Part shown: positions 3,907 to 37,022 of the stretch, piece by piece
How the letters are laid out: each line of letters starts with the position of its first letter
How positions within the stretch are numbered: the first letter of the stretch is position 1
Virus record (IMG/VR): IMGVR_UViG_3300031658_000026
Location: 1 to 41,791 of that record
Length of the DNA stretch: 41,791 bases
Source: a virus
Direction: 5' to 3' (one strand)
The notes under the pieces: model-generated
The model's input: the letters and a program-made list of their open reading frames with translations, nothing else
What the model was told of the DNA's origin: nothing
The model's database searches: none
Translations under genes and position numbers: made by a program

Positions 3907-4068
3907 ATGTCAGACACTGTACACCAGGGCATGTTTGGTCAATCAATAACAATGAATGACTATGTCCTGGTGGCGAACGACTGCAACCCATGTAGCAAAG
4001 ATGTGTGCAGAGTACATCCAGATCTAGTTATAATTTATGCATTAACACGAAACCCAAATGAGAGATAG
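3907..4068 (+). CDS. small Cys-containing protein, unknown
   Basis: This 53-residue frame fills most of the gap between the GroES-like gene and gp44. Its TAG directly abuts the gp44 ATG (TAGATG), which supports it being real and coupled. It contains NDCNPCSKDVC, three cysteines spaced C-x2-C-x4-C, suggesting a metal site or disulfide. The Shine-Dalgarno is weak. A short inverted repeat (TGTATT-TT-AATACA) lies upstream in the 67-base non-coding stretch. Confidence 0.5.
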   Translation: MSDTVHQGMFGQSITMNDYVLVANDCNPCSKDVCRVHPDLVIIYALTRNPNER

Positions 4069-4992
4069 ATGAATAATAATTTATGGACAGAAAAATATAG
4101 ACCTGCTACACTGAACGGTTATGTATTCGTGGACGACAATCAGAAAGGACAGATACAGGGCTGGATTAAAGAAAAGTCTATTCCGCATCTAATGTTCAGT
4201 GGAGCAGCAGGTACAGGTAAAACCACTCTTGCCAAGATACTAATCAATGAGATGAGTATTAATCCATATGACCTATTAGAGGTAAACGCATCTCGCAACA
4301 ACACAGTAGAGTATATTAAAAACACAATCGTTAGTTTTGTGTCAACAATGCCTTACGGTACTTTCAAAGTTGTGTTATTGGACGAAGCAGATTATATGTC
4401 GCCTAATGCACAGGCGGTGCTACGTGGAATAATGGAGACATACTACGAAACAGCACGTTTTATATTAACTTGTAATTATCCACACAAGGTAATACCAGCG
4501 TTACACAGCAGATGCCAAGGATTCCATATTGATCGCATCGATCATACAGAATTTACAGCCCGAGCAGCAGAGATTCTTATAACTGAAGGTGTTGAACCTG
4601 ATCTGGATATACTTGATAGTTATGTCAAGGCTACATATCCTGACTTGAGAAAATGTATTGGACTAATACAGGCAAATAGTAGCACTGGACAATTACTCAT
4701 GACAGCCAGCAGTGGCAGCGGTAGCGACCATAAACTTAAAGCAGTTGCTCAATTTAAAGCAGGTAATATCCGAGCAGCACGAAAAACATTGTGTGATGGC
4801 ATCACTGCCACTGATGTTGATGGGCTGATCACATGGGCGTACAACAACCTTGAGTTATGGTCTGACACAGAAGAAGGACAAGATGCTGCTATATTGGTTA
4901 TTCGCGATGCAGCGGCAAGAGTGCCAATGGTAGCTGATCCTGAAATTAACCTTAGTGCCATGATAATCGAATTATGTACAATCGATAAATAA
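4069..4992 (+). CDS. 44: clamp-loader large subunit gp44
   Basis: This 307-residue AAA+ ATPase (T4 gp44 is 319) loads the gp45 clamp onto primer-template DNA. The N-terminal NLWTEKYRP is the hallmark of RFC-type clamp loaders. Walker A is GAAGTGKT (45-52), Walker B with the DEAD-like LDEAD is at 104-108, and sensor 1 TCN is at 134-136. The SRC arginine-finger motif at 147-149 completes the ATPase site between subunits. The lid and collar domains follow. In T4 the next gene is the small subunit gp62, but the following genes here do not resemble gp62. The stop codon lies inside a late promoter. Confidence 0.95.
   Translation: MNNNLWTEKYRPATLNGYVFVDDNQKGQIQGWIKEKSIPHLMFSGAAGTGKTTLAKILINEMSINPYDLLEVNASRNNTVEYIKNTIVSFVSTMPYGTFKVVLLDEADYMSPNAQAVLRGIMETYYETARFILTCNYPHKVIPALHSRCQGFHIDRIDHTEFTARAAEILITEGVEPDLDILDSYVKATYPDLRKCIGLIQANSSTGQLLMTASSGSGSDHKLKAVAQFKAGNIRAARKTLCDGITATDVDGLITWAYNNLELWSDTEEGQDAAILVIRDAAARVPMVADPEINLSAMIIELCTIDK
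4984..4991 (+). promoter_or_regulatory. late promoter GATAAATA overlapping the gene 44 stop
   Basis: The gp44 stop TAA (4990-4992) overlaps the octamer. The predicted +1 is 4997, giving a leader of about 32 bases to the ATG at 5029, with an AGAGA-type Shine-Dalgarno. Confidence 0.55.
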
Positions 4993-6326: not shown

Positions 6327-7115
6327 ATGTATATAGACCATAGACCAACAAAGATAATCAATTTAATAGAAACAGTTGCTACAGTGTACGCATCAATGGA
6401 AAAACAGGCAGCAATTGTAGCAGCAATTGATCCAACCTTTGATACAGCGGCACACAAACCAACCAGTAACATTGAACTAGTTATGCCTACTCGTCAGCAA
6501 CAGGATAACACAAGCTGTATAGCATCTGTTTCTGATCATGTTAAATTAACAGTACACGGAAAGAATTATCGTCGAGTCCTCTCTGATTATGCAGAGGTTG
6601 TTACTGTTACTAGCCAGCATCGCAAACAAGCCAAGCAAGCAATTGATGCCTTACAACAACACGCTGTAATGCAGACATTACAGGGCAAGCCCATTAGTGC
6701 ATTTATTAAAACTCTAACAGTTGCATGCGAACAGGAACAATTGCCAGAACGCGACATTGGTATTCTTTGTTATGTGCCCAGGACTGTTTCTCAATTTAAG
6801 GCACAACAAAAAACTGCTAATATCAAAGCAGAGTTTACTAACAGCAAGCAGTTGGGTGCAATCGGCGAAAAAGTAACTGCCAATATCACTATATTCGCTG
6901 AACGTAATATGACACAATGGGATAGCACATTGTACGAAGCAAACGACGATAAAGGTAATTTAATCACATTTTTCAAAAGTTATCACAGCAAAGGCGATGA
7001 TTATGTTGTAGGTCAAACCTATCGTATTACAGGCAAAGTTAAAAAAGCAGAAGCATCAAAATATTCTTTTAATGCAATTGTAAATACCCTGAACTTTGTT
7101 AAGATTGCTAAATAA
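6327..7115 (+). CDS. putative OB-fold nucleic-acid-binding protein
   Basis: This 262-residue protein has a helical N-terminal two-thirds. The C-terminal 95 residues resemble an OB-fold: QLGAIGEKVTANITIFAERN, a loop, then DKGNLITFFKSYH, DYVVGQTYRITGKVKKAEAS and a last strand. The pattern 'GxxGxxVxxxVxV... D..GN.xxFF... Y.x..TVK' is shared with OB domains in other phage proteins. That suggests binding of single-stranded DNA or RNA, but this is inference from strand pattern, not homology. It is not gp32-like as I read it. It has its own sigma70-type promoter, implying early expression. Confidence 0.6.
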   Translation: MYIDHRPTKIINLIETVATVYASMEKQAAIVAAIDPTFDTAAHKPTSNIELVMPTRQQQDNTSCIASVSDHVKLTVHGKNYRRVLSDYAEVVTVTSQHRKQAKQAIDALQQHAVMQTLQGKPISAFIKTLTVACEQEQLPERDIGILCYVPRTVSQFKAQQKTANIKAEFTNSKQLGAIGEKVTANITIFAERNMTQWDSTLYEANDDKGNLITFFKSYHSKGDDYVVGQTYRITGKVKKAEASKYSFNAIVNTLNFVKIAK

Positions 7116-7134
7116 AAGATAGCAGGGTTTAATC

Positions 7135-7341
7135 ATGGTATGTCTTAAACACATCGTTCGAAATTATGTCAACTGCAACTGTCCTAAGGGATATAGTGAT
7201 TTTTTGGGGGCGGCGACTTCGTTTGACTCCGTGTTCGACGCAATGAAATACCTAATGACAATAAGAGAAAATGTTTCTCATTTTGAATTCATAGACGACG
7301 AGCCTACGCACGTTTACATATCTTTCGACGAACCTTCATAA
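7135..7341 (+). CDS. hypothetical small protein
   Basis: This 68-residue protein is not recognised. It has a Cys cluster near the start (VCLKH, NYVNCNCPKG) and an acidic C-terminus. GCAGGG precedes the ATG. No other motif is seen. Confidence 0.55.
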   Translation: MVCLKHIVRNYVNCNCPKGYSDFLGAATSFDSVFDAMKYLMTIRENVSHFEFIDDEPTHVYISFDEPS

Positions 7342-7362
7342 CTAACACACTAAGAGTAAAGC

Positions 7363-7998
7363 ATGACAAAACTGATTTTAACTGACGCCGACGGTGTACT
7401 ATTTGATTGGGTTACAGGATTTAACCATTGGGCCCGTGTTGTTAAAAAAATAGAACTAGTAATAGACCCAGACCAATCATACGATATTTGTGAGTGGTTT
7501 GGCTTATCACAGCAAGATGGTATTAAACTAGTAACCGAGTACAATGCCAGTGCTGCTATGGGGTTTTTGCCAGCGTACAAGGATGCAGTAAAATATGTAC
7601 AGCAACTACATCGCATACACGGATATCAATTTGTTGTGATCACAGCAATGGGAAATGATCCATATGCGTCAAGGCTGCGTTGGAATAACTTAAAGGATAT
7701 ATTTGGACCTGATATATTTGTAGATATGCATATCACAGATATTAAAGGTGACAAAACTGAATATCTCCAAGCATACCAATCCACTATCTGGATTGAGGAT
7801 AAACCAGCTAACGCAGAACTTGGACATAATATAGGACATACTACGTTTTTAATGGAGCACAAACATAACACACATGTAGATACATCCGAAGGTATACATA
7901 GAGTGCATAACTGGAAAGAGTTATATAATCAAATCGAATGTGTGCAAGCAAGACGGGCGTTTTGGCCACAACACACTGACCTTATTACAGGACATTAA
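7363..7998 (+). CDS. HAD-family hydrolase, 5'-nucleotidase-like
   Basis: This 211-residue protein opens MTKLILTDADGVLFDW. The DxDGVLxD motif (Asp8 nucleophile, Asp10 acid/base) is the signature of HAD phosphatases, especially 5'(3')-deoxyribonucleotidase relatives. Motif II is FVVITAMG near residue 86. Motif IV is IWIEDKPANAELG near residue 141, in which D and the preceding E fit the acidic Mg2+-binding pair. The likely role is dephosphorylation of a nucleotide or related metabolite, consistent with nearby dCMP deaminase and MazG. The substrate cannot be read from sequence. Confidence 0.8.
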   Translation: MTKLILTDADGVLFDWVTGFNHWARVVKKIELVIDPDQSYDICEWFGLSQQDGIKLVTEYNASAAMGFLPAYKDAVKYVQQLHRIHGYQFVVITAMGNDPYASRLRWNNLKDIFGPDIFVDMHITDIKGDKTEYLQAYQSTIWIEDKPANAELGHNIGHTTFLMEHKHNTHVDTSEGIHRVHNWKELYNQIECVQARRAFWPQHTDLITGH

Positions 7999-26392: not shown

Positions 26393-29239
26393 ATGTCGTA
26401 CGTCGACGCGCTGCACGAAAAAGATATAATAAGAGTAGTAGAACGAAAAAATGGCAAACGTATATACCAAGTTTATCCTGCTGACTATACGTTTTATTTT
26501 GATGATCCAAATGGAAAATATCGTACAGTGTACGATACGCCTGTCAGTAAATTCACAGCCAAAAGCAAACAACAGTTTATCAAAGAAGTTAAGATCATGA
26601 ATGGCAGAGTATGGGAAAGTGATATTAAACAGGTTAACAGGTGCCTTGAAACACATTACTCTGGCGACGTGGCTCCTGACCTGCATGTATGCTTTTTTGA
26701 CATCGAGGTTAACTTTGATACTGAACGAGGATTTGCTCCTCCAGAAGACCCATTCAATTACATTACTGCGATTACTGTGTACCTGCAATGGCTAGATCAA
26801 CTGATAACATTGGCAATTCCTCCACCGGCTATGTCCATGGAAGTGGCCAATCGTGTAGCAGATAAATTTGAAAATACCATCATGTTTGCAAAAGAAGCAG
26901 ACATGCTATCTACATTTTTAGATCTATTAGAAGACTCCGATATCATATCTGGTTGGAACAGTGAGGGCTTTGATATTCCATATACAGTTAACCGTATTGC
27001 CAGAGTGTTGAGCAAGGAAGACAATCGCAAATGGTGCTTGTGGAATGAGAAACCCAAGAAGCGCATGTTTGAAAGATATGGACAGGAATCATCAACATTT
27101 GATCTCAAGGGCCGAGTGCATTTGGATTATATGCAACTGTATCGCAAGTACACATACCACGAAATGCATTCATATGCACTAGATGCAATTGGCGCACACG
27201 AAGTAAATGACACCAAGATAGCATATGAAGGAACACTGGATCAGTTGTATAAAGAAGACTTTGAAAAGTTCATCGCGTACAATAGGCAGGACACTTATTT
27301 ACTACACAAGCTGGATAAGAAACTAGATTTCATATCACTTGCTAATTCCATAGCACATGAAAATACAGAATTATTACCAAAAACAATGGGAGCGGTTGCA
27401 GTTACAGAGCAAGGTATTATTAACGAATCACATAAACTCGGCCTTATTGTACCTAACAAAACAAGAGTACAAGAGACTGAATTTAGTCAGGCAGCAGGTG
27501 CTTATGTGGCTTATCCTAAGGTCGGTGTACACCAATGGATTGGCTCAATTGATATAAACTCACTGTACCCATCTGTATTACGGGCGTTGAATATGGCGCC
27601 AGAAACAATTATCGGTCAACTACGACAGACAGACACTAACGCAATGATACACGCACACATGGCATCTTCCAAGAAGGCTACCTTTTCCAGTGCATGGGAA
27701 GGACTATTTGCTAGTTTAGAATATAGTTACGTTATGGACCGGCGACCAGACACTAACGTAACCATTGACTGGGAAGGAGGGGAAAGCAATGAAATGTCCG
27801 GTAAGGATGCATATAACTTGATCTTTGAAAACGGCATGCCCTGGATAATGAGTGCTAATGGAACTATATTTACATATGAAAGGAAAGGCATTATTCCCGG
27901 ACTACTGGAAAAATGGTATGCTGATCGTAAGGTTATGCAGAAGTGTAAGGGTAGGTTTTATGATCTGTCACATCACATTGTGTTGCCCAACACAATGAAA
28001 GATCTGCAATTAACACAGGGCACAGAGCCGTTGCGTGAACTGGACTTTGATACATTGTTTGAAGCGTTTGAAGCAAATGACACAGCAACAGCAGAAACAT
28101 TATTATGTCGATACAATGTATCCATTGAGGATGGCAAACTGGTGCCCGATGTAGATGATATTAGACTTGCTATAAACTATTGGGATAAGTTACAGTTGGT
28201 ACGCAAGATTTCATTGAACAGTTTGTACGGCGCATTGCTTAACGAACATTGTAGATTCTTTGACCAACGACTAGGGCAGAGTACAACACTTACAGGACGA
28301 GCAATAGCACAATTTATGAGTGCGTATGTAAACGAAAGTATAACAGGAGTAAAAGACCATACTGGAGATGCTATCATATACGGGGACACAGATTCGGTTT
28401 ATTTCAGTGCATGGCCCATGATTAAAGATAACATCACAGCAAGCGGGCAGGAATTTACAGCAGACACAGCAACAGAGTTATATGACGCCATAAGCGATGC
28501 AGTAAACGAAAACTTTCCATTGTACATGGAAAAGGCATTTCATTGTCCCACAGAACTAGGAGAGATCATACAGGGTGGCCGTGAAATAACAGCATCCACT
28601 GGTTTGTTTATTACAAAGAAACGTTATGCGGCACTAGTAGTGGATCTAGAAGGAGAACGAAAGGACTGTGACGGTAAACCCGGTTATCTTAAGGCGATGG
28701 GACTAGACCTAAAGCGCAGTGACACACCGGTAATGGTACAGAATTTCTTAAAAGATATTCTAATGGACTTGCTTACAAATGTTGAACGAGAAGATATATT
28801 TGAAAAGATACGCGATTTTAAACGTACATTTGCGGCACTAGACAGTTGGACCAAAGGATCGCCTAAACGTGTTAACAAGCTCACAAAGCATACAGCAATA
28901 TATAACAAGACTGGCAAGTGTGGCGTTGGGCATGTATTGGCATCCATTAACTATAACATATTGCGCAAGGTGTACAGTGACAACAACAGTATGGAAATTA
29001 TGGATGGTCAGAAGGTAACAGTGTTGCGGCTGCGTGACAATCCAATGGGCTTTACTAGTATAGCAGTACCAGTGGACGAAGACAAAGTTCCATCATGGTT
29101 CAAGGAATTACCGTTTGATGACCATGCTATGGAAGATGCTGTTGTAGACAAGAAAATTAATAACTTGTTTGGCGTATTGAAATGGAACATTGCTGATTTT
29201 ACAGACACTCGCTCTACGTTTAGTAGTTTATTTGGATGA
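26393..29239 (+). CDS. 43: DNA polymerase gp43 (family B)
   Basis: This 948-residue protein is slightly longer than T4 gp43 (898). It has the 3'-5' exonuclease motifs CFFDIEV (Exo I, Asp103/Glu105), GWNSEGFDIPY (Exo II) and YNRQDTYLLHKLD (Exo III). Polymerase motifs are DINSLYPSV (near 387), KISLNSLYGAL (motif B, near 604), YGDTDSVY (motif C, near 662) and KKRYAALV. All catalytic acids are present, so both activities should be intact. The C-terminus is expected to bind the gp45 clamp. Between the exo and pol parts there are insertions relative to T4. AGAGGA precedes the ATG. The stop overlaps the methyltransferase start. Confidence 0.97.
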   Translation: MSYVDALHEKDIIRVVERKNGKRIYQVYPADYTFYFDDPNGKYRTVYDTPVSKFTAKSKQQFIKEVKIMNGRVWESDIKQVNRCLETHYSGDVAPDLHVCFFDIEVNFDTERGFAPPEDPFNYITAITVYLQWLDQLITLAIPPPAMSMEVANRVADKFENTIMFAKEADMLSTFLDLLEDSDIISGWNSEGFDIPYTVNRIARVLSKEDNRKWCLWNEKPKKRMFERYGQESSTFDLKGRVHLDYMQLYRKYTYHEMHSYALDAIGAHEVNDTKIAYEGTLDQLYKEDFEKFIAYNRQDTYLLHKLDKKLDFISLANSIAHENTELLPKTMGAVAVTEQGIINESHKLGLIVPNKTRVQETEFSQAAGAYVAYPKVGVHQWIGSIDINSLYPSVLRALNMAPETIIGQLRQTDTNAMIHAHMASSKKATFSSAWEGLFASLEYSYVMDRRPDTNVTIDWEGGESNEMSGKDAYNLIFENGMPWIMSANGTIFTYERKGIIPGLLEKWYADRKVMQKCKGRFYDLSHHIVLPNTMKDLQLTQGTEPLRELDFDTLFEAFEANDTATAETLLCRYNVSIEDGKLVPDVDDIRLAINYWDKLQLVRKISLNSLYGALLNEHCRFFDQRLGQSTTLTGRAIAQFMSAYVNESITGVKDHTGDAIIYGDTDSVYFSAWPMIKDNITASGQEFTADTATELYDAISDAVNENFPLYMEKAFHCPTELGEIIQGGREITASTGLFITKKRYAALVVDLEGERKDCDGKPGYLKAMGLDLKRSDTPVMVQNFLKDILMDLLTNVEREDIFEKIRDFKRTFAALDSWTKGSPKRVNKLTKHTAIYNKTGKCGVGHVLASINYNILRKVYSDNNSMEIMDGQKVTVLRLRDNPMGFTSIAVPVDEDKVPSWFKELPFDDHAMEDAVVDKKINNLFGVLKWNIADFTDTRSTFSSLFG

Positions 29240-30192
29240 GTAACAAACACTCTGAATTATTATTCTTTCGCAATGCGCTGGAAGGCGATGCGTTAGTGGA
29301 ACTGGAGCAATTGATTATTAAGAACAGTGCCAAAATGCAGAGTGTTGTTGGTACTTTTTTACCAGACAACAAGCCCAATGTATTTGGCAAGCAGTATAAC
29401 CAAGAGATGGTCGCAGTTGAACAAGGGTTAAGTAATTTATTTCAACTAAAACAAGAACAAATTGAACTTATCAACAACACCATCGCTAGTGAGATACCAG
29501 AAAAGGTTGCACTAGACAATGTGCATTTTGCGCAAACTTCCGTGTCAAGGCACACGTTAGAATATTTTAATGAATATGATGTACTACTTATTACAGAAAA
29601 AACCAAAAAGTTAGTAAAGGCGCGTATCGGATATTACATTGATTGGCGATTTCCTGGATTAGAGATTGGTCCTGGCACTGGCACATGGACAAGGGAGTTG
29701 GTCGCATCGGATCCACTATACATCATTGATTATAACAATGCTGCTCTGGAGAAAACAAAAAGTCGGTTTAATTTACAGTATCAAAAAAGGCTTCGTTGCT
29801 ATACTAACATGGGCAGTGGATTGCATACACTTCCACAGAATCAATTTGGGTTCGTGTTTAGCTGGAACACCTTTAATTACTTTCCAATGGACCTGATTAT
29901 GGAATACACAATTCAGATATATAATGTGTTACGTCCAGGTGGAGTGGCCATAGTTAGTTATAATAATGCGGAGAGACCACAATGTGCAAAACGAAACGAA
30001 GACAGGCTAATGTCTTATATAACAGCAACTATGCTAGCAGAACATCTAACATCTATAGGATTTATAGATATACGAACATATGACGAAGATTCAGCAGTAT
30101 CCTGGATTGAATTTTCGAAACCAGGCAAAAGAATATCAAGTCGTGGTGGGCAAACACTTGGTAAGATAATTTCTGCGTCCAACATTAGGTAA
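29236..30192 (+). CDS. SAM-dependent methyltransferase
   Basis: This 318-residue protein has an N-terminal helical domain (about 1-130). A class I methyltransferase core follows: motif I LEIGPGTGTW (142-151), an acidic motif II end YIIDYN, motif IV-like FGFVFSWNTFNYF and a later LRPGGVAIVSYNN (motif VI). The motif IV sequence is not the NPPY or DPPY of typical DNA N-methyltransferases, so a small-molecule, protein or other target is as likely. It lies between gp43 and gp45 and upstream of the deazaguanine genes, so a role in nucleotide or DNA modification is plausible but unproved. Its 4-base overlap with gp43 suggests coupling. Confidence 0.75.
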   Translation: MSNKHSELLFFRNALEGDALVELEQLIIKNSAKMQSVVGTFLPDNKPNVFGKQYNQEMVAVEQGLSNLFQLKQEQIELINNTIASEIPEKVALDNVHFAQTSVSRHTLEYFNEYDVLLITEKTKKLVKARIGYYIDWRFPGLEIGPGTGTWTRELVASDPLYIIDYNNAALEKTKSRFNLQYQKRLRCYTNMGSGLHTLPQNQFGFVFSWNTFNYFPMDLIMEYTIQIYNVLRPGGVAIVSYNNAERPQCAKRNEDRLMSYITATMLAEHLTSIGFIDIRTYDEDSAVSWIEFSKPGKRISSRGGQTLGKIISASNIR

Positions 30193-31004: not shown

Positions 31005-32606
31005 ATGCCTAAAAAAGAACAGGACAATTTAACAGCAAAACAAGGCGATTCCGCTATGTTTTTGCCTTCTATTAGCAGTTTTTATGTTAATTATATCAGT
31101 AAACAACGCCATGGAGAATTTGTCAAGAAGTCTCGTATACCATTTGCCAATGGCATGGAAGGGCTAAACTTCTTTAACGAAAAGGAAGGCAATTTTACAT
31201 ATAAATGGGCGTTATATTCGGGCGGGCATGCTGTGCTTGATGTAAATAAATCTGTCCCAGGAGAAGACATGATTCGGAAACGTGATCGAGATAAAACTTG
31301 GTTACTGGGCGACTCTGGAGGGTTTCAAATTGCGAAAGGTGTATGGGACGGCGATTGGAAAGATCCTGCTTGTCCAAAGGCACAAAAGAAACGTAGGCTA
31401 ATATTGGAGTGGTTGGAAGCATACATGGACTATAGTATGGTTTTAGATATTCCTGCTTGGCTATGTAACGTTCCAGGCAGTAGTGAAAAAACAGGCATAC
31501 ATTCGTTTAACGATGCTGTTGTTGGTACAAAATATAACCATGATTACTTTATGAAACACAGAGTAGGCGTTGAAAACGGCGGCACTAAGTTTCTTAATGT
31601 AATACAAGGCGAGAATCATCAAGATTCTGCTAACTGGTATAGCATCTTTAAAGACTATTGCGATCCAATGGTATACCCAACAACACACTTCGATGGATGG
31701 GCTTTTGGTGGTCAGAATATGTGTGATATATCGTTGTCACTAAAACGTATTGTTGATTTTCATTTTGATGGTCTCTTAGAGGAAGGTGTACATGATGTAA
31801 TTCACTTCTTGGGTATGAGTAAATTGGAATGGGCTGTAGTATTAACAACCGTTCAACGAGCAGCTCGCAAGTATTACAATCCTAACTTGTTGATTACATT
31901 TGATGCTGCTAGTCCATTCTTAGCTACAGCCAATGGCAGAATTTATACAACCACTAACACAAAGCATGATACCAAATGGACTTATCGTTCAGAAGAATCT
32001 ATAGACGATGTGGCTTACACTAGCGACACTCGTAGTTACAAAGATGCTGTTTTAAACGATGGTCTTTATGCAGAGTTCGACGAAGGTCCTGTGATGTCTG
32101 AGGTCAAGATTAACGATATATGTTTCTATCCACCCGGGTCCATTAACAAACAAGGCAATGTGGCAAAGACATCCTGGGACACATTTAGTTATTGTATTCA
32201 AATGGGCCATAATGTGTGGAATCATATTAATTCTGTACAAAAAGCAAACACCGAATATAAAAATGGTAGTACACCAAAGATGCTTATATTCGACGACAAC
32301 ATTAAATCTGTTAGAATTGAAGATGTAGTAGATAGTATATTTGCTTGCAAAACTCGTGAAGAAGCGTATGCTATTATCGAAGATCCTACTATGGAACGAT
32401 TTTGGAAACAAATCGTTGGATCACGTGGGAACATAGGTAAGAAGATCCAAAATGCGAAAACACAATATCATAATATATTTGATGCAGAAATAAACACAGA
32501 GAAAGCAACGCAAGAAGAAGTAAAGGCAGTAGAAGACGCTAAAATCGCGTTGAAAGAACGCAATAAGTCTAATACATCTGAAACATACCCAACACTATTT
32601 GGATAA
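31005..32606 (+). CDS. dpdA: DpdA-like DNA 7-deazaguanine transglycosylase (TGT family)
   Basis: This 533-residue protein is a relative of queuine tRNA-guanine transglycosylase. LLGDSGGFQIA (DSGGFQ at 103-108) matches the TGT substrate-binding motif. DIPAW (from 148) and DGWAFGG near 230 match further TGT positions. Phage members next to QueC/QueE/FolE genes are DpdA enzymes, which exchange guanine in DNA for a 7-deazaguanine base. It is longer than bacterial TGT (about 375), with an extra C-terminal region of about 150 residues. I do not see the TGT C-terminal zinc Cys cluster. The AAGGGG before the ATG is strong, and the gene follows gp45 by 13 bases. Confidence 0.85.
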   Translation: MPKKEQDNLTAKQGDSAMFLPSISSFYVNYISKQRHGEFVKKSRIPFANGMEGLNFFNEKEGNFTYKWALYSGGHAVLDVNKSVPGEDMIRKRDRDKTWLLGDSGGFQIAKGVWDGDWKDPACPKAQKKRRLILEWLEAYMDYSMVLDIPAWLCNVPGSSEKTGIHSFNDAVVGTKYNHDYFMKHRVGVENGGTKFLNVIQGENHQDSANWYSIFKDYCDPMVYPTTHFDGWAFGGQNMCDISLSLKRIVDFHFDGLLEEGVHDVIHFLGMSKLEWAVVLTTVQRAARKYYNPNLLITFDAASPFLATANGRIYTTTNTKHDTKWTYRSEESIDDVAYTSDTRSYKDAVLNDGLYAEFDEGPVMSEVKINDICFYPPGSINKQGNVAKTSWDTFSYCIQMGHNVWNHINSVQKANTEYKNGSTPKMLIFDDNIKSVRIEDVVDSIFACKTREEAYAIIEDPTMERFWKQIVGSRGNIGKKIQNAKTQYHNIFDAEINTEKATQEEVKAVEDAKIALKERNKSNTSETYPTLFG

Positions 32607-32610
32607 GGCA

Positions 32611-33390
32611 ATGAAAGAACTAAATGTAATAACTAAAGGTAAGGCGCAAGCACAAGGTAAATCTGTACTATTATTTAGTGGCGGGATGGATTCTGTTATG
32701 TTCAATTTGTTACTAAAACCTGATGTGTTGTTATACATTCCAACCGGTTCTAACTATGAGACTGTTGAAACTGCTAAGATACAAAAAATGGCACAGGCTG
32801 GTATTATAGATAAAGACAAGTTAGTTGTACTTGACAAAGAACTAAACTTAGGTATGTTTGAACGCGATGATCTTATTGTGCCCAATCGCAATGCACATCT
32901 AATCTTATTGGCATCACATTTTGGAGAAACTATTTACTTAGGTTCTGTATACGGCGATAGATCATTTGACAAAGATAAAACGTTTTACACGTTAATGGAA
33001 AACTTGCTGAACCATATGTGGGCCGAGCAACATTGGACCGAGGAACGTAAGTTTACAGTGACTTCTCCATACAAAGATACAACTAAAACAGAACTCATTA
33101 AAGAGTACGTTAAGGAAGGCGGCAATATACAACACGTATTAGATTCCTATAGTTGCTATCGTGGTTGGGAACAGCCGTGTGGTATTTGCAAGCCGTGTGT
33201 TCGCAAAGCAGTATCGTTATATTGTAATGATATTAAAGTTCCAAATAATTACTTCGAAGAGCACCCGATGTCAGCTGCTTGGATTAAGGAAGTATTACCG
33301 TTGATGGCCGATGGTAAGTACAGAGGTAGAGAAGATAGTGAATTTTTGTTAGCAATGGATAAGACTGGATTTATGCCAGATGGATCATGA
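32611..33390 (+). CDS. queC: 7-cyano-7-deazaguanine synthase QueC
   Basis: This 259-residue protein makes preQ0 from 7-carboxy-7-deazaguanine using ATP and ammonia, via an amide intermediate. The PP-loop is LFSGGMDSV (SGGMDS 23-28). The zinc site CYRGWEQPCGICKPC (Cys182, 190, 193, 196) is intact. I begin at ATG 32611 because AAGG lies just upstream and QueC proteins start close to the PP-loop strand; a TTG at 32599 would add 4 residues. It directly follows dpdA. Confidence 0.92.
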   Translation: MKELNVITKGKAQAQGKSVLLFSGGMDSVMFNLLLKPDVLLYIPTGSNYETVETAKIQKMAQAGIIDKDKLVVLDKELNLGMFERDDLIVPNRNAHLILLASHFGETIYLGSVYGDRSFDKDKTFYTLMENLLNHMWAEQHWTEERKFTVTSPYKDTTKTELIKEYVKEGGNIQHVLDSYSCYRGWEQPCGICKPCVRKAVSLYCNDIKVPNNYFEEHPMSAAWIKEVLPLMADGKYRGREDSEFLLAMDKTGFMPDGS

Positions 33391-33995: not shown

Positions 33996-34274
33996 ATGAT
34001 CACTAACGTACCAGACGTAGATCTAGGCAGTTACGCCATGTCATTAGGTAACCTATCTATTAGCCAAGACATGGTGGGCTCACAGACTATTAATATGTCG
34101 TTTTCGCTGCCTTACGCTAATAAAGATAACGATACTAAATTGGATCAATTCTTTACAGACTTGCGTATCATGAATACCCTGCGAAGTAATCCTACTGCGG
34201 TCGTTAGGGATCATTATGAACAACTGTTATCATTGCTAGCTTTGACGAGTAATACACTGCCCACAGCCAAGTAG
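33996..34274 (+). CDS. hypothetical protein
   Basis: This 92-residue protein has a beta-like start (VDLGSYAMSLGNLSISQDMV) followed by a helical end. No motif is recognised. AAGGT is present before the ATG. It ends just upstream of a late promoter. Confidence 0.6.
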   Translation: MITNVPDVDLGSYAMSLGNLSISQDMVGSQTINMSFSLPYANKDNDTKLDQFFTDLRIMNTLRSNPTAVVRDHYEQLLSLLALTSNTLPTAK

Positions 34275-34282
34275 CATAAATA
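34275..34282 (+). promoter_or_regulatory. late promoter CATAAATA of folE
   Basis: It begins immediately after the upstream TAG stop. The predicted +1 is 34288, the first base of the leader stem-loop described next. Confidence 0.65.
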
Positions 34283-34287
34283 AACAC

Positions 34288-34310
34288 AGTACCAGCAAGA
34301 GGTTGGTACT
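34288..34310 (+). promoter_or_regulatory. 5'-terminal leader stem-loop before folE
   Basis: AGTACCA (34288-34294) pairs with TGGTACT (34304-34310) around a 9-base loop, starting exactly at the predicted +1. A second hairpin, TATAAC (34323-34328) with GTTATA (34334-34339), puts TGGAG of the Shine-Dalgarno in its loop directly before the folE ATG at 34340. Confidence 0.55.
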
Positions 34311-34339
34311 AACTTAAACAACTATAACTGGAGGTTATA

Positions 34340-35023
34340 ATGTCTTTAAACAAGCAAAAATGCGATCCTGCACTGGGTCAAAAAGTACACGCACATCTTG
34401 AATCCTTAGGATTAGAAACACCACAAATCGAAAACTCTTTGTCGGTTAAAGAACGTATCGCTACGATCGAAGGTCATTTCCATAAGATCATGACAACACT
34501 TGGGTTGGATTTAAGCGACGATAGTCTTATTGATACACCCAAACGTGTGGCTAAGATGTATGTAACAGAAATATTTTATGGCTTAGACTATGATACATTT
34601 CCTAAATGTACTGCAATTCTTAATAAGTTTGATGCAGACGAAATGATTGTGGAACGTAATGTAAACGTAATGTCAAATTGCGAACATCATTTTGTTACTA
34701 TCGATGGCCTTGCCACAGTTGGTTACATTCCAACAGCAAAGGTTATTGGGCTTAGTAAGATCAATCGTATTGTAGAATACTTCTCAAAACGACCACAAGT
34801 ACAAGAACGCCTAACAGCACAGATTCATGCTGCATTATGTTTCATTCTTGAAACAGAACATGTTGCAGTTATGATTGATGCCAAGCATTACTGTGTAGCC
34901 TCGCGTGGAATCGAAGATACTGGATCATTTACTACAACTAGTAAATTGTCAGGTGCATTCAAAGATACCAACGAAGGCGCAAGGCAAGAGTTTATGGCAA
35001 TCGCTAATAACACTTACAAGTAA
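34340..35023 (+). CDS. folE: GTP cyclohydrolase I
   Basis: This 227-residue enzyme opens GTP to dihydroneopterin triphosphate, the first step toward 7-deazaguanines (and folate). The zinc ligands are present: Cys114 and His117 in SNCEHH, and Cys185 in [12 protein letters not shown]. The catalytic core [18 protein letters not shown] and [12 protein letters not shown] is typical of FolE. It has its own late promoter and structured leader, unlike its neighbours. The AsnB-like gene starts one base after its stop. Confidence 0.96.
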
Positions 35024-36148
35024 ATGTTCTTTTATCTCACCGTAGATAATTCTAAGGTGGAGTTGTTACCCGAAGCGTATTCGGTTAATAGCTCCACGTT
35101 GTTTTTAGATTCTGGCTGGAACATGAAAGAAGACACTAACACCATTACGTGGCGTAAAGGTTACAGTTTAGAATGTACAATGGAAGATATCCATCCACAT
35201 GCACAATGTCGTGGACATTATTGTATTATTGAGTTTACCAAGGTCGGCGGAGAATGGAATATATATCATGATACATTACGTGGCTTTCCAATATATTACA
35301 ATAAACACAACATTACTAATTTGGTACCATTCGACCAAACAGTTTCCATTAACGATGCTATAAGTGTTACAACGCATGTTGCACTTAAACCAGGTCATAA
35401 AGTAACATTTGATTACACTCCACAATCATTGAGTATAGACGACGCAGCAGACTTGGTAAGTGACGAACTAGCTAGCAATATATTAGATTATATAAAATAC
35501 AATAACAGAAAATTATGTCTTGATATGTCAGGTGGATACGATAGTACAACTCTTCGAGCTATTGTAGAATCAAGAAATATACCTTGCACTATAAGAGATG
35601 TGGTTATTAGAGGATTACCAATAGAACAAACTAAAGAGCCACTGCTTAAATATCTACGACAAACGCATTGGGGATACAAGCAGTTAAGAATGGAAATAAG
35701 AAAGCCTCCTGCAGGTAATGCATTGGTAACTGGTTATATGGGCGATGAGTTCTTAATGAGAAATCCGGCTTATGTATCGTACGTGTTAAATCTACATGGA
35801 ATGTCATTGTATGACTATATCACAAAATCAGTAGAAACAACATATATGACTGATTTTATCAAAACGTACTACATGGAAAAAATTGCAACACCTAAGCCAG
35901 ATGGCTATACATTAGATGATGTTATAAATGCATTAGCAACAGATTATCAGATGTGGCACTACAATGAGCAGATAATGTTACTACCATACAAATCTAAGAA
36001 AATAATGGAATACGGCTTTAGTTTAGACATTGATAGTATAATTAGCCAGGTAATGTCCGCAACGATACAGAAGACGATAATTGAACGTAGTAACCCAGCA
36101 TTACTAGATACGATATACAAACATAAAAATGTTTATCAAAACAATTGA
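35024..36148 (+). CDS. asparagine-synthetase-like PP-loop enzyme within the deazaguanine cluster
   Basis: This 374-residue protein has the two-domain plan of class B asparagine synthetase. The N-terminal 130 residues resemble the Ntn glutaminase domain: RGHYCIIEF and YHDTLRGFPIYYN correspond to the AsnB 'GxFAxxxxD...RDxxGxxPLYY' region. The obligatory Cys2 is missing (MFF start), so it should not hydrolyse glutamine. The synthetase half has a PP-loop LDMSGGYDSTT (SGGYDS 169-174) and GYMGDEF (237-243), like AsnB GxGxDE. It should therefore adenylate a carboxylate and add ammonia or another amine, as beta-lactam synthetases do. Lying between folE and queE, it may modify the carboxyl- or cyano-deazaguanine. 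That is inference. Confidence 0.75.
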   Translation: MFFYLTVDNSKVELLPEAYSVNSSTLFLDSGWNMKEDTNTITWRKGYSLECTMEDIHPHAQCRGHYCIIEFTKVGGEWNIYHDTLRGFPIYYNKHNITNLVPFDQTVSINDAISVTTHVALKPGHKVTFDYTPQSLSIDDAADLVSDELASNILDYIKYNNRKLCLDMSGGYDSTTLRAIVESRNIPCTIRDVVIRGLPIEQTKEPLLKYLRQTHWGYKQLRMEIRKPPAGNALVTGYMGDEFLMRNPAYVSYVLNLHGMSLYDYITKSVETTYMTDFIKTYYMEKIATPKPDGYTLDDVINALATDYQMWHYNEQIMLLPYKSKKIMEYGFSLDIDSIISQVMSATIQKTIIERSNPALLDTIYKHKNVYQNN

Positions 36149-36172
36149 TATTTAACCCAAACTACAGTATAA
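36144..36172 (+). promoter_or_regulatory. sigma70-type promoter TTGATA-17-TATAAT
   Basis: TTGATA is at 36144-36149 and TATAAT at 36167-36172. The queE ATG is 7 bases after the -10 box, so the mRNA should be leaderless or nearly so. The -35 box overlaps the stop of the upstream gene. Confidence 0.8.
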
Positions 36173-36179
36173 TAACAAT

Positions 36180-37022
36180 ATGAAAAAATTAAAAATAAGC
36201 GAATCCTTTTACTCTATACAAGGCGAAGGGTTTTATACAGGTGTTCCTAGTGTGTTTTTAAGAACATTCGGCTGTAACTTAACTTGTGAAGGCTTTGGTA
36301 TGTTAGCAGGAGAAAAATCCAAAGACCGGTTTAATGTAACAATTGACAACTTGTTAAAGACAGCAACATCAATACATGACTTGCCACTTGTCAGCACTGG
36401 ATGTGATTCATATGCTAGTTGGGATGTAAGGTTTAAAGGACTAAGTCCAATGAAGACCACCGACCAAGTAGCAGACGAGATTACAGCATTGCTGCCATCT
36501 CCTAACTGGGACGGTGTGCATTTGATTATAACAGGCGGCGAGCCTTTATTAGGATGGCAACGTGCGTACACTGAACTATTTGAACACAGTAAATTATCAA
36601 CATTGAAACACGTGACATTTGAAACAAACGGCACACAAGCATTACACACAGATCTTAAAGAATATACAATTCATTGCGATCAGCAGTTTAACTTTTCAGT
36701 AAGTCCAAAGTTATCGGCAAGTGGAGAGGATCCTGCTATTGCCATTAGGCCAGACATTGTTGCCGAGTATCAGTATCACGGCACCGTTAATCTTAAATTT
36801 GTGTGTAACACAGAATCACACATCATAGAGGCACTTGACGTGGTGTCACAGTACCGAGCAGCCGGGCTTAAAGAGCATAACGTCTGGATCATGCCTGAAG
36901 GTGGAATGAGCACACGTTACAACGAAAATGCCAGGCCAATGGCAGAGTTATGCTTAAAGTACAAATTAAACTATAGTCCAAGACTTCATGTTGACCTTTT
37001 TGGAAATGCCTGGGCTACATAA
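36180..37022 (+). CDS. queE: 7-carboxy-7-deazaguanine synthase QueE (radical SAM)
   Basis: This 280-residue protein opens with the QueE signature KISESFYSIQGEGFYTG and VFLRTFGCNLTC. The enzyme uses a [4Fe-4S] cluster and SAM to contract carboxy-tetrahydropterin to CDG. TGGEPLL (118-124) is the radical-SAM GGE motif. Cluster Cys are Cys32 and Cys36 (C-x3-C) and probably Cys75 in TGCDSYASWD, about 38 residues further on, instead of the usual C-x3-C-x2-C. This long insertion is known from one QueE subgroup. It has a leaderless sigma70 promoter. It would be an obvious client of the phage IscU/IscA. Confidence 0.93.
   Translation: MKKLKISESFYSIQGEGFYTGVPSVFLRTFGCNLTCEGFGMLAGEKSKDRFNVTIDNLLKTATSIHDLPLVSTGCDSYASWDVRFKGLSPMKTTDQVADEITALLPSPNWDGVHLIITGGEPLLGWQRAYTELFEHSKLSTLKHVTFETNGTQALHTDLKEYTIHCDQQFNFSVSPKLSASGEDPAIAIRPDIVAEYQYHGTVNLKFVCNTESHIIEALDVVSQYRAAGLKEHNVWIMPEGGMSTRYNENARPMAELCLKYKLNYSPRLHVDLFGNAWAT

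Follow-up and report, generated by a model that had tools for sequence, protein, structure and literature searches.

A probable remote relative of asparagine synthetase B, lacking the glutaminase cysteine, among the 7-deazaguanine genes of a phage contig

An open reading frame in a 41,791-base viral contig very probably encodes, as judged from sequence comparisons, a divergent and remote member of the asparagine synthetase B (AsnB)/beta-lactam synthetase superfamily. The encoded protein, here termed ASL (AsnB-superfamily ligase-like protein), lacks the cysteine nucleophile of the AsnB glutaminase domain and is located amid genes for the formation and use of 7-deazaguanines. ASL and two distant homologues appear to constitute a rare and undescribed variant of the AsnB ligases that is specific to phages and whose glutaminase is dead. 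The contig (hereafter the window, meaning the whole stretch of DNA that was analysed) is incomplete and comes from a virus of bacteria; it contains PolB, sliding-clamp-like and exonuclease genes.

The ASL gene and its protein product

The features of the window on which the following analysis relies are:

31005..32606, plus strand: putative DpdA-like transglycosylase, with the motifs DSGGFQ, GGQNMC, LGMSKLEW and FDAASP collinear with E. coli Tgt
32599..33390, plus strand: QueC-like PP-loop enzyme with a non-canonical substrate pocket (PF06508, E=3e-14; phrog_1550; alignment)
34340..35023, plus strand: folE, GTP cyclohydrolase I (PF01227, E=7e-59; NF006824 above cut-off)
35024..36148, plus strand: ASL, AsnB-superfamily ligase-like protein of 374 amino acids without Cys2 (open reading frame; homologues in L285 and L207)
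35213..35299, plus strand: remnant of the end of a glutaminase-like domain (GHYCIIEF...DTLRGFPIYY, aa 64-92), collinear with AsnB GMFAFAL..RDHLGIIPLY by hhalign
35528..35545, plus strand: PP-loop SGGYDS (aa 169-174), by motif and within the stretch covered by the NF033561 match (aa 131-185)
35732..35752, plus strand: GYMGDEF (aa 237-243), by motif, the putative counterpart of AsnB GEGSDE; not kept in L285 (TGYYAEV)
36180..37022, plus strand: queE, 7-carboxy-7-deazaguanine synthase-like radical SAM enzyme (phrog_2076, E=3e-55)

The ASL reading frame is uninterrupted over 374 codons from an ATG start. The TAA stop codon of folE directly adjoins this ATG (AAG TAA ATG TTC), and ASL is therefore probably co-translated with folE, while its end is separated from the start of queE by 31 bp. 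The G+C content of the gene (0.35) is slightly below that of its neighbours (0.38-0.41). A TATAATA element at positions 36160-36180, just upstream of queE, is also present in L002, the closest phage relative, and may serve as a promoter for expression of queE independently of folE and ASL.

The protein begins with MFFYLTV. Its second residue is a phenylalanine, as it is in all three known family members, and the Cys2 nucleophile of the AsnB glutaminase is consequently absent; for this reason, the glutaminase of ASL is regarded as dead. An internal Met-Cys pair that might provide a processed N-terminus was not found within the ASL sequence, and the assignment of ASL as a canonical AsnB enzyme is ruled out by the missing Cys2. 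An earlier reading of the DNA letters (the sequence-only reading) had described a lost Cys2 combined with preserved SGGYDS and GYMGDEF motifs, a description borne out by the reading frame of the window. AlphaFold2 runs with single-sequence input gave pLDDT values of 34 for ASL and 38 for its C-terminal domain, both too low for a reliable model of the fold.

Kinship with asparagine synthetase B

Profile libraries barely recognize ASL. There was no match to Pfam or PHROG profiles, even when searched by domain, and the curated cut-offs of PF00733, PF13537 and TIGR01536 were not reached. The sole library match of ASL alone was to NF033561 (E=7.6e-4, aa 131-185, 18 bits, with the cut-off at 300), the model of macrolactam cyclases of the albusnodin/ikarugamycin type within the AsnB superfamily. 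As a reference, 13 AsnB-like proteins taken from E. coli, plasmids and phages were aligned. In hhalign, ASL matched this alignment with P=0.0016 over aa 63-185, a stretch that begins in the last part of the glutaminase domain and includes the PP-loop, and the match was better than those of all decoys (150 natural phage open reading frames and 60 shuffled sequences). Taken from the single sequence, the likeness of ASL to AsnB is thus beyond chance yet weak.

The profile built from the three family members gave a considerably better value (P=9e-6, probability 83%) and was collinear with AsnB over the glutaminase end and the PP-loop; furthermore, the homologue L207 matches the asparagine synthase model TIGR01536 on its own (E=1e-4). 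The hhalign alignments place a glutaminase-like domain ahead of the PP-loop domain, which is the domain order of AsnB. Hence, the designation of the gene product as an asparagine synthetase-like protein with an inactive glutaminase holds, with the proviso that the kinship is remote.

Distribution and divergence of the ASL family

ASL has few detectable relatives. Searches of 50,697 phage records and of plasmids by tblastn retrieved none, and none emerged from single-protein peptide scans of IMG/VR and the GTDB species genomes. The 50,697 phage records likewise yielded no match when each of the three family members was used as the tblastn query, nor did a scan of IMG/VR with poor patterns derived from the two-member alignment. 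When GYMGDEF, or GDE together with SGGYD(S), was searched for as a DNA pattern, the hits were chance matches only, plus a phage PP-loop protein unrelated to ASL (L183; a minus-strand reading frame of 414 amino acids with the motif YSGGYDSHA). A wide occurrence of the gene in phages devoid of deazaguanine genes, which would speak against a link to this pathway, was therefore not seen in these records.

Both homologues came from contigs of phages related through queE or dpdA. A scan of 80 IMG/VR loci around queE relatives revealed L207 (IMG/VR 3300027782_003240, positions 6764-7471), a distant homologue (BLASTP E=9e-5) present as a fragment of 236 amino acids that runs up to the contig end; it starts with MFF and contains TGGLDSSTL and VTGFFGD. 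Application of the resulting two-member profile to the whole contigs of the relatives then revealed L285 (IMG/VR 3300002307_001210, positions 1153-2316), a full-length homologue of 387 amino acids (27% identity over 369 aa, E=4e-31), whose 56.8-kb contig also carries a DpdA of the window's family (34230-35702), FolE and QueE. The three-member profile detected no further member in 48 other DpdA contigs, and neither did the two- and three-member profiles when applied to 60 other QueE contigs; many of these contigs were fragments. The survey of co-occurrence with dpdA and queE that had been proposed in the sequence-only reading finds queE on the contigs of all three known members, with dpdA and folE also present on two of them; since the sensitive profiles covered only contigs that had been selected by their queE or dpdA, this co-occurrence is biased and should be taken as suggestive, not as proof.

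The divergence of the family is very fast, its members sharing only 25-29% identity although they reside in related phages. The PP-loop reads SGGYDS in ASL, TGGLDS in L207 and SAGLDS in L285, while the TGYMGDE segment of ASL is replaced by TGFFGDC in L207 and by TGYYAEV, with loss of GDE, in L285. Hence, the retention of the ligase motifs pertains to the window copy, in which both are intact, and does not extend to the full-length homologue, in which part of both has been lost. Two C-terminal segments, D[YW]QMWH and IQ[KR].II.R..P.LL, are common to both full-length members. Either these motif changes are compatible with the chemistry or not every member is a ligase, as far as the sequences can be read; this decay is our main ground for doubting that one uniform enzymatic function applies to the whole family.

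The 7-deazaguanine cluster and the position of ASL

The location of ASL amid 7-deazaguanine genes is supported by profile matches for FolE and QueE, which are firm, and for QueC, which is recognized clearly though it is divergent, and by motifs for the DpdA-like protein, which together make up a dpdA plus preQ0-pathway gene set. QueD (PF01242) was not found in the window, an incomplete contig, and the full cluster with QueD and a canonical QueC is thus not present in it. The DpdA assignment rests on Tgt motifs because no Pfam, NCBIfam or PHROG model matches the protein: DSGGFQ is shared with E. coli Tgt, and GGQNMC, LGTSKLEW and FDxASP correspond to GGLAVG, MGVGKPED and FDCVMP, respectively. 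The DpdA-like family has at least 589 relatives in IMG/VR, many of which lie near folE or queE (loci L041-L119); relatives in named phages (PA5oct and its kin) are annotated as hypothetical proteins. A conserved gene of about 170 codons adjoins dpdA in L002 (11823-12332), L003 (9145-9642) and L084 (11756-12289); it is absent from the window, and no family match was found for its product in these three loci.

The QueC-like protein retains SGGMDS, VPNRN and the zinc cysteines, but the motifs YxQxHxxE and YPDC have been lost; E. coli QueC cannot form preQ0 without the tyrosines of these two motifs (PMC13329287). Members of the same QueC subfamily, which is marked by a GDRxxDK insert, occur in the window, in L002 (12329-13096) and in L199 (MT835752; about 4001-4666). 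L002 shares this non-canonical QueC type, and these phages may thus use preQ0, ADG or CDG (7-carboxy-7-deazaguanine); most of the DpdA/FolE/QueE contigs (L041-L119) show no QueC at all, and the base could therefore be CDG instead of preQ0.

The sequence-only reading had taken the placement of ASL between folE and queE as a sign of a role in the pathway, a notion that does not survive comparison with related phages. In L002, the order of the methyltransferase, clamp, DpdA, QueC, FolE and QueE genes is kept (47-87% identity; 70-87% for DpdA, QueC, FolE and QueE), ASL is absent, and queE follows folE after 46 bp. ASL was found between the two genes in none of the 36 relatives that possess both; their spacing is about 36-56 bp in 21 of them, and the longest gaps are filled by ClpP-, phosphoribosyltransferase- and HIT-like genes, as named by sequence inspection. 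No tRNA was found by ARAGORN at the ASL site of L205. The homologues L207 and L285 are found near exonuclease and o181 genes, at distances of 3.7 kb and 8.4 kb to queE, and the folE-queE placement is hence unique to the window contig. The contention that this position proves a pathway role was consequently rejected. The varying presence and position mark ASL as an accessory gene that moves within the region, and its location alone is no evidence for a role in the pathway.

Possible function and alternative explanations

We lean towards the view that ASL is a working amide ligase. The glutaminase domain would be reduced to a structural remnant, the PP-loop domain would bind ATP and adenylate a carboxylate, and an amine other than glutamine-derived ammonia would attack the adenylate to form an amide and AMP. 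As the product of QueE, CDG is the carboxylated base to be expected from the genes present, and no other carboxylate-making base enzyme was seen: the window contains no C5 cytosine methyltransferase (PF00145), and its methyltransferase at 29236-30192 is not CmoA-like, which rules out a CmoA cofactor route. Although preQ0 had also been envisioned as a substrate, it possesses no carboxylate, and thus only CDG could serve in the proposed chemistry. Judged from this context, CDG, whether as the free base or after its insertion into DNA by DpdA, would be the likeliest single substrate, and the product might be an amide-linked deazaguanine that hides the phage DNA from nucleases. The QueC-like enzyme of the same cluster would compete with ASL for CDG. 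ASL may represent an accessory tailoring step that is gained and lost between close relatives.

The proposal as a whole, with CDG as the substrate, strikes us as plausible but doubtful. That ASL specifically couples the 7-carboxy group of CDG, free or in DNA, to an amino acid or some other amine, thereby creating an undescribed hypermodified base and a separately evolved counterpart of the CmoY pathway (see below), is a tentative idea that we rate as rather unlikely.

It is quite possible, if short of an even chance, that ASL, as an AsnB-superfamily amide ligase, acts on a substrate other than a deazaguanine (an amino acid, a peptide, a sugar acid or a host component), and that its location in this region merely reflects an accessory gene of the phage lineage. 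The shifting position among the homologues, the differing presence of ASL in close relatives and the ClpP-, phosphoribosyltransferase- and HIT-like genes in other folE-queE gaps are all in keeping with such a substrate, as are the epimerase and nucleotidyltransferase genes beside an AsnB gene in L084 and the sugar-type genes of L207; the restriction of all three members to queE contigs, with none in the 50,697 phage records, argues in the opposite direction. When all of them are considered together, non-CDG substrates are at least as likely as CDG. Alternatively, ASL could be a non-catalytic or regulatory AsnB descendant, a partner or decoy, whose motifs were kept in the window copy by chance. 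The altered motifs of L285 (SAGLDS, TGYYAEV) and L207 (TGFFGDC in place of GDE), the very fast divergence and the glutaminase site that is already gone would fit this explanation, but it is unlikely given that the window copy has both motifs intact in a clean reading frame and that the two C-terminal segments are conserved in both full-length members.

It appears highly improbable that ASL supplies or replaces part of the QueC function by converting CDG and free ammonia into 7-amido-7-deazaguanine. The non-canonical phage QueC lacks the two motifs that are essential in its E. coli counterpart (PMC13329287), and dADG is already known as a phage DNA base (PMC8306585, PMC6884629); however, this type of QueC occurs without ASL in L002, whereas the G052 region contains ASL and shows no QueC, so that the two genes do not go together.

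Carboxyl handles for the amide hypermodification of phage DNA were first shown in 2025, for CmoY acting on cytosine (PMC12783734). If the proposed activity on CDG is true, ASL would represent a second, unrelated family of AsnB-like ligases, in CDG-making phages, and the strategy would have arisen twice; a new class of DNA bases would be predicted, and an assay-ready enzyme would be at hand. Even with another substrate, ASL represents a family of phage proteins that is so far undescribed and whose glutaminase domain is dead.

Comparison with known systems

The beta-lactam and carbapenam synthetases possess the AsnB fold with an N-terminal domain that lacks the cysteine nucleophile, and they adenylate a carboxylate without the use of glutamine. 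Enzymes of the beta-lactam synthetase class comprise about 500 amino acids, show clear homology to PF00733 and close an intramolecular amide. Cys2 is absent from both ASL and these enzymes; the catalytic Tyr/Glu/Lys residues are not locatable in ASL at such divergence. With AsnB itself (TIGR01536, PF13537 plus PF00733), ASL shares the domain order and the SGGxDS and GxxGDE motifs, but it has no Cys2, RGPD or glutamine-binding motifs, its N-terminal domain is shorter by about 40 residues, and its scores fall far below the cut-offs. A glutaminase-competent AsnB (MCGFFFT) is present in a DpdA-carrying phage relative (L084, 2128-3453), upstream of the epimerase and nucleotidyltransferase genes. 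The macrolactam cyclase model NF033561 is the best library match, confined to the PP-loop region and far from its cut-off, and no RiPP precursor or tailoring genes were seen.

The QueC-family enzymes QatC and Cap9 join CDG to protein amines (PMC13329287, PMC13279940). They are PP-loop enzymes that perform the very chemistry proposed for ASL, yet they belong to the QueC fold family with its zinc site, and they are bacterial defence proteins that act on protein N-termini.

CmoY from Synechococcus phage S-B43 (A0A514ABJ0) is an AsnB-like enzyme that adenylates 5-carboxymethylcytosine in DNA and joins it to glycine (PMC12783734). By analogy, CmoY lends credence to the earlier suggestion that a ligase of this type could use a carboxylated DNA base. 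Like ASL, it is a phage ligase of the AsnB superfamily without glutaminase activity encoded beside DNA-base modification genes; it differs in being 271 amino acids long, in consisting of the synthetase domain only, in adjoining cmoA and cmoX, and in matching PF00733 strongly. BLASTP produced no meaningful alignment between ASL and CmoY, and cmoA and cmoX were not found as neighbours of ASL; membership of ASL in the CmoY family is ruled out by this missing similarity and by the lack of a C5 cytosine methyltransferase in the window. By way of analogy, CmoY is a precedent for the chemistry envisioned for ASL and not its sequence relative.
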